DNA of 39,409 nucleotides. Source: Thermoplasmata archaeon. Its GTDB lineage: Archaea > Thermoplasmatota > Thermoplasmata > Lutacidiplasmatales > UBA184. The stretch covers positions 1 through 39,409 of the forward strand of contig JAKAWP010000009.1 in NCBI GenBank assembly GCA_021816955.1, read 5' to 3'. This document shows, in pieces, positions 31,192 to 36,640 of this stretch. Below the pieces are notes generated by a model. That model was not told where the DNA came from, did no database searches, and worked only from the letters and a program-made list of their open reading frames with translations. The translations under genes and the position numbers were made by a program. Position 1 is the stretch's first letter, and each line of letters begins with the position of its first letter.

Positions 31192-32313
31192 ATGAAGCGA
31201 CGGGTCGAGAAGGTCTTCCGCCAATTGGAGAATCCGCCGGACGCCCTGCTGCTCGCGAACGCGACCGACCCGTTCATCGACAGCTCGTTCTTCTACCTGT
31301 TCGACGTCCCGAGCGGCCTCTTCGAAGGATCCGTCGCCGTCGCCTTCCCGGACGGCGCGCTGCACGTGTACAGCTCCCCCCTCGAGGCCGAGACCGCGCA
31401 TCAAGCCGCGAAGGACGACCCATCGGTCACGATCCACGTCGCCCCGACCTCGCCGGCGGACCCGAAATCCCTCGAACGCGAGCTCGCCGAGCTGCTCCGC
31501 GGCGTCTCGCGGATCGGGCTCAACTTTCGGGAGCTCACCCACGAGTGGTACCGGCGCCTCGATAAGATGCGGCCCGGCACTACGTGGGTGGACGCGAGCG
31601 CCGGCTTCCGCAAGGCCCGGGTGACGAAGGACGCCGCGGAAGTGGAACGGATCCGACGGGCGGCCGAGATCGGCTCGCGCGTCGGTCGAGAGATCCCCGG
31701 CTGGCTAGCGGAAGGGATCACCGAGCTCGAGCTCGCCGCGCAGATCGAGCACGCGATGATGCAGGCGGGCGCGAGCGGCCGGTCGTTCACGACGATCGTC
31801 GGCTTCGGTCCGAAGAGCGCCGAGCCTCACTATTATCCCCAGGAGCGCCGGCTCGCCAGCGGCGACTCGATCGTCTGCGACTTCGGGGCGTGGTACCGGC
31901 GCTACGCGAGCGACATCACCCGCTCGTTCCACTTCGGCCGGCACGACGACGAGATGGCTCGCGTGCACACGACCGTCGAGGCCGCCCAAGCCGCAGCGCT
32001 GGAGGTGATCCGGCCCGGGGTACCCGGGAAGGAGGCCCATCTCGCCGCCGCGCGAGTCATCGACGCCTCCCCGTGGAAGGGCCGCTTCACCCACGGCCTC
32101 GGCCACTCCGTCGGCCTCGCCGTGCACGACGGCTACTCGATGGGCCCGACCACCGACGACCCTCTCGAAGAGGGGATGGTCGTCACGGTCGAGCCCGGCA
32201 TCTACCTGCCCGGCCGGGGCGGGGTCCGCATCGAGGACGACATCCTCGTGACGAAGAACGGCTACGAATTCCTCACGACCACCCCACGAGGGTACCTCGA
32301 GGTCGAAGCGTGA
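31192..32313 (+). CDS. pepQ: Xaa-Pro dipeptidase / aminopeptidase (M24 family)
   Basis: 373 residues. An N-terminal creatinase-like domain (about 1-130) precedes the pita-bread catalytic domain. The five metal ligands are visible: Asp in DFGAWYRRYASDITRSF (two Asp), His in HGLGHSVGLAVHD, Glu in VTVEPGIYLPG and Glu in VRIEDDI. It cleaves dipeptides ending in proline, complementing the proline iminopeptidase at 1001-1930. The leaderless ATG 31192 fits a TATA-like box. Its last four bases are shared with the start of the phosphofructokinase gene, indicating coupling; the metabolic link is not obvious. Confidence 0.92.
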   Translation: MKRRVEKVFRQLENPPDALLLANATDPFIDSSFFYLFDVPSGLFEGSVAVAFPDGALHVYSSPLEAETAHQAAKDDPSVTIHVAPTSPADPKSLERELAELLRGVSRIGLNFRELTHEWYRRLDKMRPGTTWVDASAGFRKARVTKDAAEVERIRRAAEIGSRVGREIPGWLAEGITELELAAQIEHAMMQAGASGRSFTTIVGFGPKSAEPHYYPQERRLASGDSIVCDFGAWYRRYASDITRSFHFGRHDDEMARVHTTVEAAQAAALEVIRPGVPGKEAHLAAARVIDASPWKGRFTHGLGHSVGLAVHDGYSMGPTTDDPLEEGMVVTVEPGIYLPGRGGVRIEDDILVTKNGYEFLTTTPRGYLEVEA

Positions 32314-33329
32314 CGGTCGGCGTCCTGACCGGAGGCGGCGACTGCCCGGGGTTGAACGCCGCCATCCGCGCCGTCGTGCTTCGCGCCGCGGCGCGGGGCC
32401 ACCGAACCGTCGGCTTCTTGGACGGCTGGAAGGGCGTGCGGGACGGCCAAAGCCGCCCGCTCGACCCGTCGGACGTCCGCGGCCTCGTCGGCAAGGGAGG
32501 CACGATCCTCGGCAGCTCGCGGACGAACCCGTTCGCGAAGGAGGACGACGCGCGGCGCGTGATCGAGACGCTCCGCGCGAGCGGCGTCGACGCGCTGATC
32601 GCGATCGGCGGGGACGATACCCTCTCGGCCGCTCGGGAGCTCCACCGGCGCGGCGGCCGGGTCGTCGGCGTGCCGAAGACGATGGACAACGACGTCGAGG
32701 GGACCGACTGGACGTTCGGCTTCTTTAGCTCGGTGAGCGTGGCGACCGAGGCCGCCGAGCGGCTGCGAGACACGGCGGAAAGCCACCACCGCGCCGTCGT
32801 TCTCGAGGTGATGGGACGCCATGCGGGCTGGGTCGCACTGCTCACCGGCCTCGCGAGCGGGGCGGACGTCACCCTCCTTCCCGAGGTCCCCTACGACGAG
32901 GCCGCGATGATCGCCGCCGTCCGGCGGGCGGTCGAGGCCCGGGGCTATGCGGTCGTCATCGCGAGCGAGGGGATCGATCTCGGACGGCGAGGCTCGGCCG
33001 GCGGCCGGGACGAATTCGGCCACGAGCTCCTCGGGGAGCGGGGCGTCGGCCAGGAGATCGCGCGTCGGATCGAGGCAGCGACCCACGTGGAATCCCGGAG
33101 CGCGCAGATCGGCCACATCCAGCGCGGGGGCCCGCCGGTCGTCTTCGACCGGGTCCTCGCGAGCCGCCTCGGCGCCGCGGCCGTCGATTTCGCGCTCTCC
33201 GGACAGCTCGGGGTCGTCGCGGTCCTTCGAGGGCGCGAGATCGCCGCGATCCCGTTCGATCAAGCGGTCGGAGCGACGCGCCGCGTCGAACCGGCGTGGA
33301 TCGATCTCCTCCGGACGCTCGAGGGGTAG
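32310..33329 (+). CDS. pfp: phosphofructokinase, probably pyrophosphate-dependent
   Basis: 339 residues. The PFK-A fold: GVLTGGGDCPGLNAAIR at the N-terminus, GGDDT at 100-104, PKTMDND at 122-128 (the catalytic Asp126) and VMGRHAGW. The residue that is Gly104 in the ATP-dependent E. coli enzyme is Asp103 here, and Gly124 is Lys123. Both are the known marks of pyrophosphate-dependent enzymes, so PPi rather than ATP is the likely donor, and the reaction would be reversible. GTG 32310 shares 4 bp with the pepQ stop. The larger open frame upstream is a shadow of pepQ. It is followed 5 bp later by mtnA. Confidence 0.9.
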   Translation: MTVGVLTGGGDCPGLNAAIRAVVLRAAARGHRTVGFLDGWKGVRDGQSRPLDPSDVRGLVGKGGTILGSSRTNPFAKEDDARRVIETLRASGVDALIAIGGDDTLSAARELHRRGGRVVGVPKTMDNDVEGTDWTFGFFSSVSVATEAAERLRDTAESHHRAVVLEVMGRHAGWVALLTGLASGADVTLLPEVPYDEAAMIAAVRRAVEARGYAVVIASEGIDLGRRGSAGGRDEFGHELLGERGVGQEIARRIEAATHVESRSAQIGHIQRGGPPVVFDRVLASRLGAAAVDFALSGQLGVVAVLRGREIAAIPFDQAVGATRRVEPAWIDLLRTLEG

Positions 33330-33334
33330 CGACG

Positions 33335-34345
33335 GTGGCGGCGGTCCGGGCGCTCGGCTTTGATCGCGGACGCCTCTGGGCGATCGACCAACGCGCGCTG
33401 CCCGACCGGCTGATCATCCGACGGTTCGCCCGGGTCCGTGAGGTGGCGGACGCGATCCGGAGCATGGCGATCCGCGGCGCCCCGTCGATCGGCGTTGCGG
33501 GGGCCTACGGGATGGCGCTGGCGTCCCGCGAAGGCCGGTGGACCGTGGCGGCCGCCCGTCGCCTCCTCCTCGCGACCCGACCGACGGCGGTCGACCTCGC
33601 CGTCGGGGTCGACCGGGTCGCGCGCGCGTGGCGGGACGGCGACGACCCGCTCTCGGCCGCGGACGCCTACCGGGCCGAGATCGTCGACGCGTGCCGGCGC
33701 ATCGGCCGCCACGGCGCGCCGCTGCTCCGACGGGTCGAGCGGGTCCTCACCCACTGCAACGCCGGCGCGCTGGCGACGGTCGAGTGGGGTACCGCGCTCG
33801 CGCCGATCCGGCTCGCCCACACCGAACGGCCGGAGCTGTTCGTCTGGGTCGATGAGACCCGCCCGCTCCTGCAAGGGGCCCGTCTCACGGCGTGGGAGCT
33901 CGCCCGCGAGCGAATCCCGCACGCGGTCATCGCCGACAACGCCGCCGGCTACTTCATGCGCCGCGGCGAGGTCGACGCCGTCATCGTGGGCGCCGACCGG
34001 ATCGCCCGGAACGGGGACACGGCGAACAAGATCGGCACGTACGAGAAGGCCGTCGTCGCGCGGGAGAACGGCGTTCCGTTCTACGTCGCCGCGCCGTGGT
34101 CGACGTTCGACGCGCGCCGCGCGACGGGCGATGCGATCCCGGTCGAGGAGCGGAGCCCCGAAGAGCTCCTCCGCTGGGGGACGCGGCGCGCCGCCCCCCG
34201 TTCGAGCTCGGCGCGCAACCCCGCGTTCGACATCACGCCGGGCCACCTCGTGACGGCGTTCGTCACGCCGGACGGCGTCTATCGGCCGCGCGACCTCGCG
34301 CGCGCCCTCGCCCGACGGGAGCGCCGTCCTCAGAAGAGCGGTTGA
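33335..34345 (+). CDS. mtnA: S-methyl-5-thioribose-1-phosphate isomerase (MtnA family)
   Basis: 336 residues. The isomerase of methionine salvage, which turns methylthioribose-1-phosphate into the ribulose form. Motifs: MAIRGAPSIGVAGAYG, the catalytic Cys in THCNAG, DETRPLLQGARLTAWEL and the catalytic Asp in VGADRIARNGDTANKIGTY. These separate it from ribose-1,5-bisphosphate isomerase and eIF2B subunits of the same superfamily, but the distinction by eye is not absolute. GTG 33335 follows the phosphofructokinase stop by 5 bp, so it is part of that operon. Its 3' end overlaps the small membrane protein gene on the other strand by 16 bp. Confidence 0.9.
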   Translation: MAAVRALGFDRGRLWAIDQRALPDRLIIRRFARVREVADAIRSMAIRGAPSIGVAGAYGMALASREGRWTVAAARRLLLATRPTAVDLAVGVDRVARAWRDGDDPLSAADAYRAEIVDACRRIGRHGAPLLRRVERVLTHCNAGALATVEWGTALAPIRLAHTERPELFVWVDETRPLLQGARLTAWELARERIPHAVIADNAAGYFMRRGEVDAVIVGADRIARNGDTANKIGTYEKAVVARENGVPFYVAAPWSTFDARRATGDAIPVEERSPEELLRWGTRRAAPRSSSARNPAFDITPGHLVTAFVTPDGVYRPRDLARALARRERRPQKSG

Positions 34346-35618: not shown

Positions 35619-35668
35619 CGGCCCCCAGCCAAAGGTTCATAGCGGGGCGGGCGTACCGGCGCCGGGCT

Positions 35669-35772
35669 GCCCTGGTAGTCTAGTGGTCTAGGATCTAGGC
35701 CTGTCGAGCCTGGAACTCGGGTTCGAACGGATCCGGCCGAACCGCCGGGCCCCGGAACTCCCGACCAGGGCG
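35669..35772 (+). tRNA. tRNA-Asp (GUC) with a 31-nt intron in the T-loop
   Basis: The acceptor stem GCCCTGG (35669-35675) pairs perfectly with CCAGGGC (35765-35771), and the discriminator is G35772. The D arm is standard; the anticodon loop CTGTCGA (35701-35707) carries GTC at 35703-35705 in a 5-bp stem TAGGC/GCCTG. The T-stem TCGGG (35717-35721) pairs with CCCGA (35760-35764), but 38 nt lie between instead of 7. Removing 31 nt restores TTCGACT or TTCGAAT. CCA is not encoded. The uninterrupted 5' part is that of an archaeal tRNA-Asp, and the gene looks intact apart from the insert. Confidence 0.88.
35727..35757 (+). other. predicted tRNA intron (T-loop, about position 58/59 or 59/60)
   Basis: 31 nt; the exact ends can shift by one or two because GAAC occurs at both borders. 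With the ends given here, the loop after splicing is TTCGACT. A relaxed bulge-helix-bulge can be drawn: CGGA (35728-35731) against TCCC (35759-35762) gives three of four pairs, and CCGG (35733-35736) pairs with CCGG (35752-35755). Inside it, CCGGC and GCCGG form a stem with a 6-nt loop. The splicing endonuclease would need to accept this form. Confidence 0.65.
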
Positions 35773-35795: not shown

Positions 35796-35804
35796 CGTTT
35801 ATGG
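35796..35804 (+). promoter_or_regulatory. TATA box of the cis-prenyltransferase gene
   Basis: CGTTTATGG is centred about 25 bp before GTG 35825. The ATG inside it is in frame with the gene but is better read as TATA. Confidence 0.55.
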
Positions 35805-35824
35805 CCGCACCGGCTAGGTCGTCC

Positions 35825-36640
35825 GTGACGCCTCCCCCCGCAGAGACGAACGACGACGCGGCGGAGCGGATCACGGGGCTCGTCGGCGACGCGATACGAC
35901 GGGCGACCGAGCGTCGGCTCCTCGCGCAGATCGTGCGGGAACCGGTCCCCAAGCACCTCGCCATCATCATGGACGGCAACCGCCGATTCGCCGAGGAGCG
36001 CGGGCTGAACGTGCGCGAGGGCCACGAGCGGGGGAAAGACCGGCTCGAAGAGCTGCTCAACTGGTGCCTCGAGGTCGGCATCCGGATCCTGACCGTCTAC
36101 GCGCTCTCGACGGAGAACCTGAACCGTCCCAAGAGCGAGGTCGACTCGCTGATGGAGCTGTTCGAGCGGAGCTTCCGGGAGATCGCGACGGACGAACGGG
36201 TCCACCGCCACCGGATCCGGGTGCGGGCGATCGGCAAGCGGAGCGTTCTACCCGAGCGCGTGCGGGCGGCGATCGATGTCGCGGAAGCCGCGACCCGCGA
36301 CTACGACCAGTACTTCTACAACGTCGCGATCGCCTACGGCGGGCGGGACGAGATCGTCGAGGCGATCCGGTCGCTCGCCCGGGAGGTCGCGAGCGGACGG
36401 CTGGCGCCCGAGGCGATCGATGCGGCGACCGTGAGCCGGCACCTCTACACGGCCGACCTGCCCGATCCGGACCTCGTCTTCCGGACGAGCGGGGAGGAGC
36501 GGATCTCCAACTTCCTCCTCTGGCAGTCGGCGTACAGCGAGCTGTACTTCTCGGACGTGCTCTGGCCGGGCCTCACCGAACTCGACTTCCTCCGGGCGAT
36601 CCGGGCGTACCAGACCCGGCGCCGCCGGTTCGGCGCGTAG
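35825..36640 (+). CDS. uppS: cis-prenyltransferase (polyprenyl diphosphate synthase, UppS family)
   Basis: 271 residues. It extends farnesyl or geranylgeranyl diphosphate with isoprene units in cis to make the long-chain carrier for glycan assembly. Motifs: HLAIIMDGNRRFA (the catalytic Asp), GHERGKDRLEE, TVYALSTENLNRP, and the C-terminal RTSGEERISNFLLWQSAYSEL with YFSDVLWP. GTG 35825 is chosen because the TATA box CGTTTATGG lies 25 bp upstream; the ATG at 35801 is inside that box. The GT2 upstream and the GT-C-like protein downstream fit a glycosylation cluster that would use its product. Confidence 0.94.
   Translation: MTPPPAETNDDAAERITGLVGDAIRRATERRLLAQIVREPVPKHLAIIMDGNRRFAEERGLNVREGHERGKDRLEELLNWCLEVGIRILTVYALSTENLNRPKSEVDSLMELFERSFREIATDERVHRHRIRVRAIGKRSVLPERVRAAIDVAEAATRDYDQYFYNVAIAYGGRDEIVEAIRSLAREVASGRLAPEAIDAATVSRHLYTADLPDPDLVFRTSGEERISNFLLWQSAYSELYFSDVLWPGLTELDFLRAIRAYQTRRRRFGA

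Follow-up and report, generated by a model that had tools for sequence, protein, structure and literature searches.

A bulge-helix-bulge intron at position 59/60 of the sole detected tRNA-Asp gene of a Lutacidiplasmatales archaeon with a two-unit splicing endonuclease

In the accepted picture of archaea, rich sets of non-canonical tRNA introns go together with splicing endonucleases of the (alpha-beta)2 or epsilon-2 type, which carry special loops. Introns that form a bulge-helix-bulge (BHB) motif at non-canonical positions have been described in the Thermoproteales (Sugahara 2008 and Fujishima 2010, as cited in PMC4033280; reviewed in PMC4090602), and the tRNA intron positions already published include 59/60 (PMC4090602). 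For the Euryarchaeota, introns have been described in fewer than 10% of the tRNA genes, at the canonical position (PMC4090602). BHB introns, including those of the T-arm, and position 59/60 are already known, as are intron-rich archaea outside the Thermoproteales, namely the Asgard archaea (PMC11291895). Here we describe the tRNA-Asp(GUC) gene at 35669-35772 on the plus strand of a 39,409-nt stretch of DNA (the window; contig JAKAWP010000009.1 of assembly GCA_021816955.1; GC 0.70) from a Thermoplasmata archaeon with a genome assembly of 1.42 Mb (93.5% complete). The T-loop of this tRNA is interrupted by a 31-nt intron between positions 59 and 60. We consider it about 93% probable that the gene is functional and the only one for tRNA-Asp(GUC) in the organism, and that its BHB intron is spliced by proteins via EndA and RtcB. 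The first-pass annotation of the window had pointed to the Thermoproteales as the setting for such T-arm introns, while the lineage is Thermoplasmatota (Lutacidiplasmatales).

The precursor is 104 nt long and the mature tRNA 73 nt. The acceptor stem (7/7; 35669-35675 with 35765-35771), the anticodon stem (5/5; anticodon GTC at 35703-35705) and the T stem (5/5; 35717-35721 with 35760-35764) are fully paired, and the discriminator is G73 at 35772. Between the two strands of the T stem, 38 nt (35722-35759) occupy the place of the 7-nt T-loop, and removal of 31 nt restores TTCGAAT and a standard 73-nt tRNA. Exon 1 (tRNA positions 1-59) spans 35669-35727 and ends with T54-A59 at 35722-35727, the intron spans 35728-35758, and exon 2 (positions 60-73) spans 35759-35772 and starts with T60. 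The first-pass annotation had recognized both the tRNA-Asp and the length of its T-loop intron, and its warning that simple tRNA searches may miss the gene was borne out: neither ARAGORN nor Rfam at gathering score detected the gene in scans of the window, and the Rfam tRNA model gave just 20.6 bits on a misaligned stretch. Its junction of 35726 to 35758 was one base off: both the geometry of the BHB motif and the tRNA-Asp of a sister family, which lacks the intron, show that the exons join 35727 to 35759.

The T-arm of the precursor forms a strict BHB motif, in which two 3-nt bulges flank a 4-bp helix. The outer helix is the T stem (TCGGG/CCCGA). The central helix (TTCG/CGGA; pairs U-A, U-G, C-G and G-C) is formed between the universal T54 T55 C56 G57 of exon 1 (35722-35725) and an intron strand at 35753-35756, and the bulges are AA|C and AC|T, to which the intron contributes C at 35728 and AC at 35757-35758. 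The inner helix, GGAUCCGG/CCGGGCCC, pairs 35729-35736 with 35745-35752 with a single A.C mismatch. When the 48-nt T-arm was folded alone, the minimum-energy structure had the T stem, the central helix and both bulges as proposed, with the register of the inner helix slightly shifted. When the 31-nt intron was shuffled 200,000 times, 20 shuffles formed all four central pairs together with seven or more of the eight inner pairs; the pairing of the intron is not due to chance. A box C/D RNA, or a functional RNA of another kind, inside the intron was considered by eye, with no search made, and set aside, as 31 nt is too short and the sequence is not conserved.

Comparison with related tRNA-Asp genes, which the first-pass annotation had proposed as a check, places the intron at the same site throughout the genus (g1). 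Using a 62-nt query over exon 1, we found that nearly all alignments in the genus stop within a few bases of A59. All 44 further tRNA-Asp loci that were parsed (43 genomes) contain an intron of 28-34 nt at 59/60, and every one of them has a fully paired central helix (4/4) and, after splicing, the T-loop TTCGAAT. The exons of these orthologues are nearly unchanged, while the intron sequence has diverged with its pairing kept. In the sister family f2 of the same order (G061 and G063), tRNA-Asp is uninterrupted and has the T-loop TTCGAAT, identical to that of the spliced tRNA-Asp; in other families it is also uninterrupted (TTCGAAT, TTCAAAT or TCCGAAT), except in genome G062. These intronless genes fix the 35727/35759 junction independently of the motif. 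In an alignment that drew 33 T-arms from several isotypes, 88.8% of the cells were paired, compared with 67.5% in shuffles and 28-62% with slid partners; two-sided changes were found in 104 cells (42.5 expected in shuffles) and at 12 of the 17 pairs.

The gene downstream of tRNA-Asp, which from its translation is UppS-like (undecaprenyl/polyprenyl diphosphate synthase; 35801-36640, plus strand) and stands outside the intron system, served as a synteny marker for locating named relatives. Eleven named relatives have an intron-bearing T-arm upstream of this gene, and the same T-arm intron is present in the UppS-linked locus of Thermoplasmata archaeon SubAcS15-25, SubAcS15-67 and AcS5-34. These three are members of the same family (f1) of acid-soil Lutacidiplasmatales (Thermoplasmatota) as the genome studied here; PMC9287336, whose main text does not mention introns, lists them among the genomes of the Lutacidiplasmatales.

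The tRNA-Asp intron is one of many in its genome. Introns at 59/60 were found in at least 14 of the 39 detected tRNA genes (about 36%): Asp-GTC, Glu-CTC, Arg-TCT, Arg-TCG, Asn-GTT, Gly-TCC, Ser-GCT, Ser-GGA, Ser-CGA, Ala-GGC, Gln-CTG, Lys-TTT, His-GTG and Leu-TAG. The acceptor and T stems are perfect in the 13 intron-bearing tRNAs parsed by script; a further match on contig C2 (E = 0.37) was not tRNA-like and was dropped. D-loop introns are present in Lys-TTT, Arg-GCG and Leu-TAG (around 7860-7990 of contig C65), so that Lys-TTT and Leu-TAG have D-loop and T-loop introns together, and Leu-TAG was not detected by the Rfam tRNA search. Anticodon-loop introns (37/38-type) were seen in Met-CAT, Tyr-GTA and Leu-TAA. 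In the whole genome, tRNAs for Cys, Trp, Gly-GCC, Val-GAC, Pro-GGG and Pro-TGG were not found, which reflects either gaps in the assembly or genes whose introns are more numerous or more unusual.

To follow the introns among relatives, we searched their genomes with a covariance model built for the T-arm intron. Every one of the 61 genomes searched in the genus had 5-14 matches. In an even sample of the phylum, all 23 members of family f1, from several genera, had 2-12 matches, which is an undercount since the filters of this search were stricter than those of the genus search. Two independent species (G018 and G029) have 13 and 12 tRNA genes with T-loop introns, overwhelmingly of the same isotypes as in the genome described here; two loci were assigned over their automatic parses, L249 as Leu-UAG on re-reading and L257 as Arg-UCG by eye. 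Genomes of other families mostly had 0-2 matches, and a few had 3-5. Single matches outside the family are not noise, as the acceptor and T stems are complete in the 14 that were fetched, most of which belong to tRNA-Arg(UCU). Indeed, a lone 59/60 intron is usually in tRNA-Arg(UCU), in many Thermoplasmatota families (11 loci), which suggests an old intron that spread in family f1; the whole set may descend from this tRNA-Arg(UCU) intron. G062, which belongs to the same order outside family f1, had nine matches, eight of which are mini-introns of about 13-15 nt almost without an inner helix. The central helix of these mini-introns is paired 4/4 (TTCA/TGAA), and they often share a tRNA with an anticodon-loop or D-loop intron.

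The sole EndA gene of the genome is a single reading frame that codes for two PF01974 units, and nearly all Thermoplasmata searched have two such units. The protein aligns over both units to the two-unit enzyme of Archaeoglobus fulgidus (2GJW), 5x89 and 1R0V, and its second unit conserves the catalytic Y, H and K and the bulge-binding R (motifs HFRAY, EEAHARY and VRVAQGVRK). An insertion corresponding to the Crenarchaea-specific loop (CSL) or the ARMAN-specific loop (ASL), the special loops of the broad-specificity enzymes, was sought in the catalytic unit by alignment and none was found; the loop reads AFGSRVGSRLELSL. Where (alpha-beta)2 enzymes have separate subunits and a CSL of 15-18 residues, and epsilon-2 enzymes (ARMAN-2) a three-unit chain and an ASL of 11 residues, this EndA is a single chain of two units with neither. 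From its sequence, EndA is of the alpha-prime-2 type with two fused units, which settles the type of enzyme that the first-pass annotation had left to be checked, and by homology to the A. fulgidus and Thermoplasma acidophilum enzymes it would form a homodimer. RtcB is also encoded in the genome (560 bits). Enzymes of the alpha-prime-2 type are classed as having narrow specificity (PMC6379350, PMC12397907), and those of A. fulgidus and T. acidophilum are so listed in a table of PMC6379350. On the other hand, homodimeric EndA can also cut bulge-helix-loop (BHL)-like motifs (PMC8707768), and thus the literature on homodimer specificity is not uniform.

The EndA of family f1 has substitutions of its own near the active site: the EGDP that follows the catalytic Tyr has become PRNP, and YGK and AHG are replaced by YGS and AQG. 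The fourth pair of the central helix also has its own usage in the family. Among 96 introns of family f1, this pair is G57-C in 55, A57.G in 35, and A-U in only 3; among 25 loci outside the family, it is A57-U in 13 and G57-C in 12. In tRNA-Asp the two sides switch together, with G57 opposite C in genus g1 and A57 opposite G in genera g32 and g36. In the genome described here, 9 of the 14 introns have a non-standard fourth pair (A.G, as in Glu-CTC, or G.G in Asn), and tRNA-Asp is not among them. The usage of the fourth pair and the changes in EndA may be linked.

We propose that, in the precursor, the T stem acts as the outer helix and the intron hairpin as the inner helix, while T54-T55-C56-G57 pairs with the intron CGGA to form the 4-bp central helix between the bulges AA|C and AC|T. 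EndA, in which one chain supplies a degenerate and a catalytic unit and two chains would assemble into the alpha-prime-2 homodimer, would cut both bulges, and RtcB would join the exons into a normal T-loop. Position 59/60 would be favoured since every tRNA has T54-R57 and a T stem; any insert whose end consists of a strand that pairs with TTCR and a 3-nt bulge would create a spliceable motif at this site. The tRNA-Arg(UCU) intron probably spread to about 14 tRNAs in this way and was then inherited vertically. For the broader proposal, that in Lutacidiplasmatales a homodimeric EndA without CSL or ASL co-evolved with T-loop introns that pair with the universal T54-R57 (the fourth pair being G57-C or a maintained A57.G) and that a single ancestral tRNA-Arg(UCU) intron spread to about 14 tRNAs by way of the half-motif common to their exons, we see an even chance.

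The gene could in principle be a disrupted or decaying copy of tRNA-Asp, with another gene doing the work, and the failure of standard tRNA searches on it fits such a copy. The first-pass annotation had named a second, uninterrupted tRNA-Asp gene as the finding that would point this way; we looked for one in the genome and found none, and the interrupted gene has orthologues in 43 other genomes of the genus whose exons are nearly unchanged and whose diverged introns keep their pairing, which makes decay hardly credible. It is also very unlikely that the mature tRNA keeps the insert in a larger T-arm, as a structural extension rather than an intron. The insert is stably base-paired, as such an extension would be, but its retention would destroy the D-loop/T-loop elbow in about one third of the tRNAs; the geometry is exactly that of a 3-4-3 BHB, the uninterrupted tRNA-Asp of family f2 is exactly the spliced product, and EndA and RtcB are both encoded. 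What speaks for removal by a broad-specificity (alpha-beta)2 or epsilon-2 endonuclease, as in the Thermoproteales or ARMAN, is the non-standard fourth pair (A.G, G.G) in other tRNAs of the genome and the near lack of an inner helix in the G062 mini-introns, and some relaxation of specificity therefore exists. Such an enzyme is nevertheless improbable, to much the same degree as a retained insert, given that the genome has only two PF01974 units in one frame and that the catalytic unit has no insertion at the CSL/ASL site. The motif of tRNA-Asp itself is strict, and thus no relaxed endonuclease is needed for this intron; the relaxed enzyme or relaxed motif supposed by the first-pass annotation is not what we found.

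Several observations weigh against removal of the tRNA-Asp intron by EndA and RtcB as proposed here, or against the spread of these introns. We infer the splicing from sequence, and folding the whole precursor without constraints gives a misfolded minimum-energy structure (-54.8 kcal/mol, compared with -36.4 kcal/mol for the BHB cloverleaf). The folding program, which works without modifications and tertiary contacts, misfolds the spliced tRNA-Asp as well, and the whole-molecule minimum is therefore uninformative. Within the genome, introns from tRNAs of different isotypes are only slightly more alike than shuffles (mean score 3.6 versus 2.0), and this weak excess does not make recent transposition visible as similarity among the introns. 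Close species have almost the same sequence in their orthologous introns, and since introns of different isotypes exceed shuffles so little in similarity, the spread would be old.

Upstream of tRNA-Asp, a putative BRE/TATA-like element, CAAAGGTTCATAG, lies at 35630-35642 (plus strand), about 27-39 nt before the gene. It is conserved in 49 loci, the upstream regions of which have their peak of information content at -37 to -28 and are flat further upstream, and it probably acts as a promoter element. Elsewhere in the window, translations of the region 32240-34345 indicate a 6-phosphofructokinase-like open reading frame (the C-terminal part of that at 31584-33329) followed by an S-methyl-5-thioribose-1-phosphate isomerase-like open reading frame (33296-34345).

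An acid-soil archaeal order with many T-loop introns and yet a plain two-unit EndA departs from the accepted picture. If the co-evolution proposed above is true, it breaks the rule that many non-canonical tRNA introns need the architecture of a broad-specificity endonuclease. With graded relatives, in which the number of introns at this single site runs from zero through one to as many as 14, intron gain and the co-evolution of EndA become directly testable. A possible benefit of T-loop introns is that they split the 3' half of the tRNA, the attachment site of integrases. A practical consequence is that simple tRNA finders can overlook or misinterpret at least 14 essential tRNA genes in this genome, with effects on annotation and on statements about the completeness of metagenome-assembled genomes.

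In the open-licence literature, we found no report of a one-site expansion at 59/60 in any euryarchaeal lineage whose EndA has two units; some of the genes may already be included in tRNA databases such as GtRNAdb. The introns described here resemble those of the Thermoproteales in the BHB motif, the EndA/RtcB machinery, the non-canonical positions and the many tRNAs affected. Unlike in the Thermoproteales, they lie mainly at one site (59/60), in acid-soil Thermoplasmatota with a two-unit alpha-prime-2 EndA. With the soil Asgard archaea (Atabeyarchaeia and Freyarchaeia; PMC11291895) they share a soil lineage outside the Thermoproteales and many non-canonical tRNA introns, whereas here about 36% of the detected tRNA genes have an intron at one and the same T-loop site. 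EndA itself is like the alpha-prime-2 enzymes of A. fulgidus (1RLV/2GJW), T. acidophilum (2OHC) and Ferroplasma (PMC8707768) in its two-unit chain, its Y/H/K and bulge-binding R, and its lack of ASL and CSL. It differs from them in the family-specific substitutions near the active site, and in a substrate set that is far larger and centred on the T-loop.
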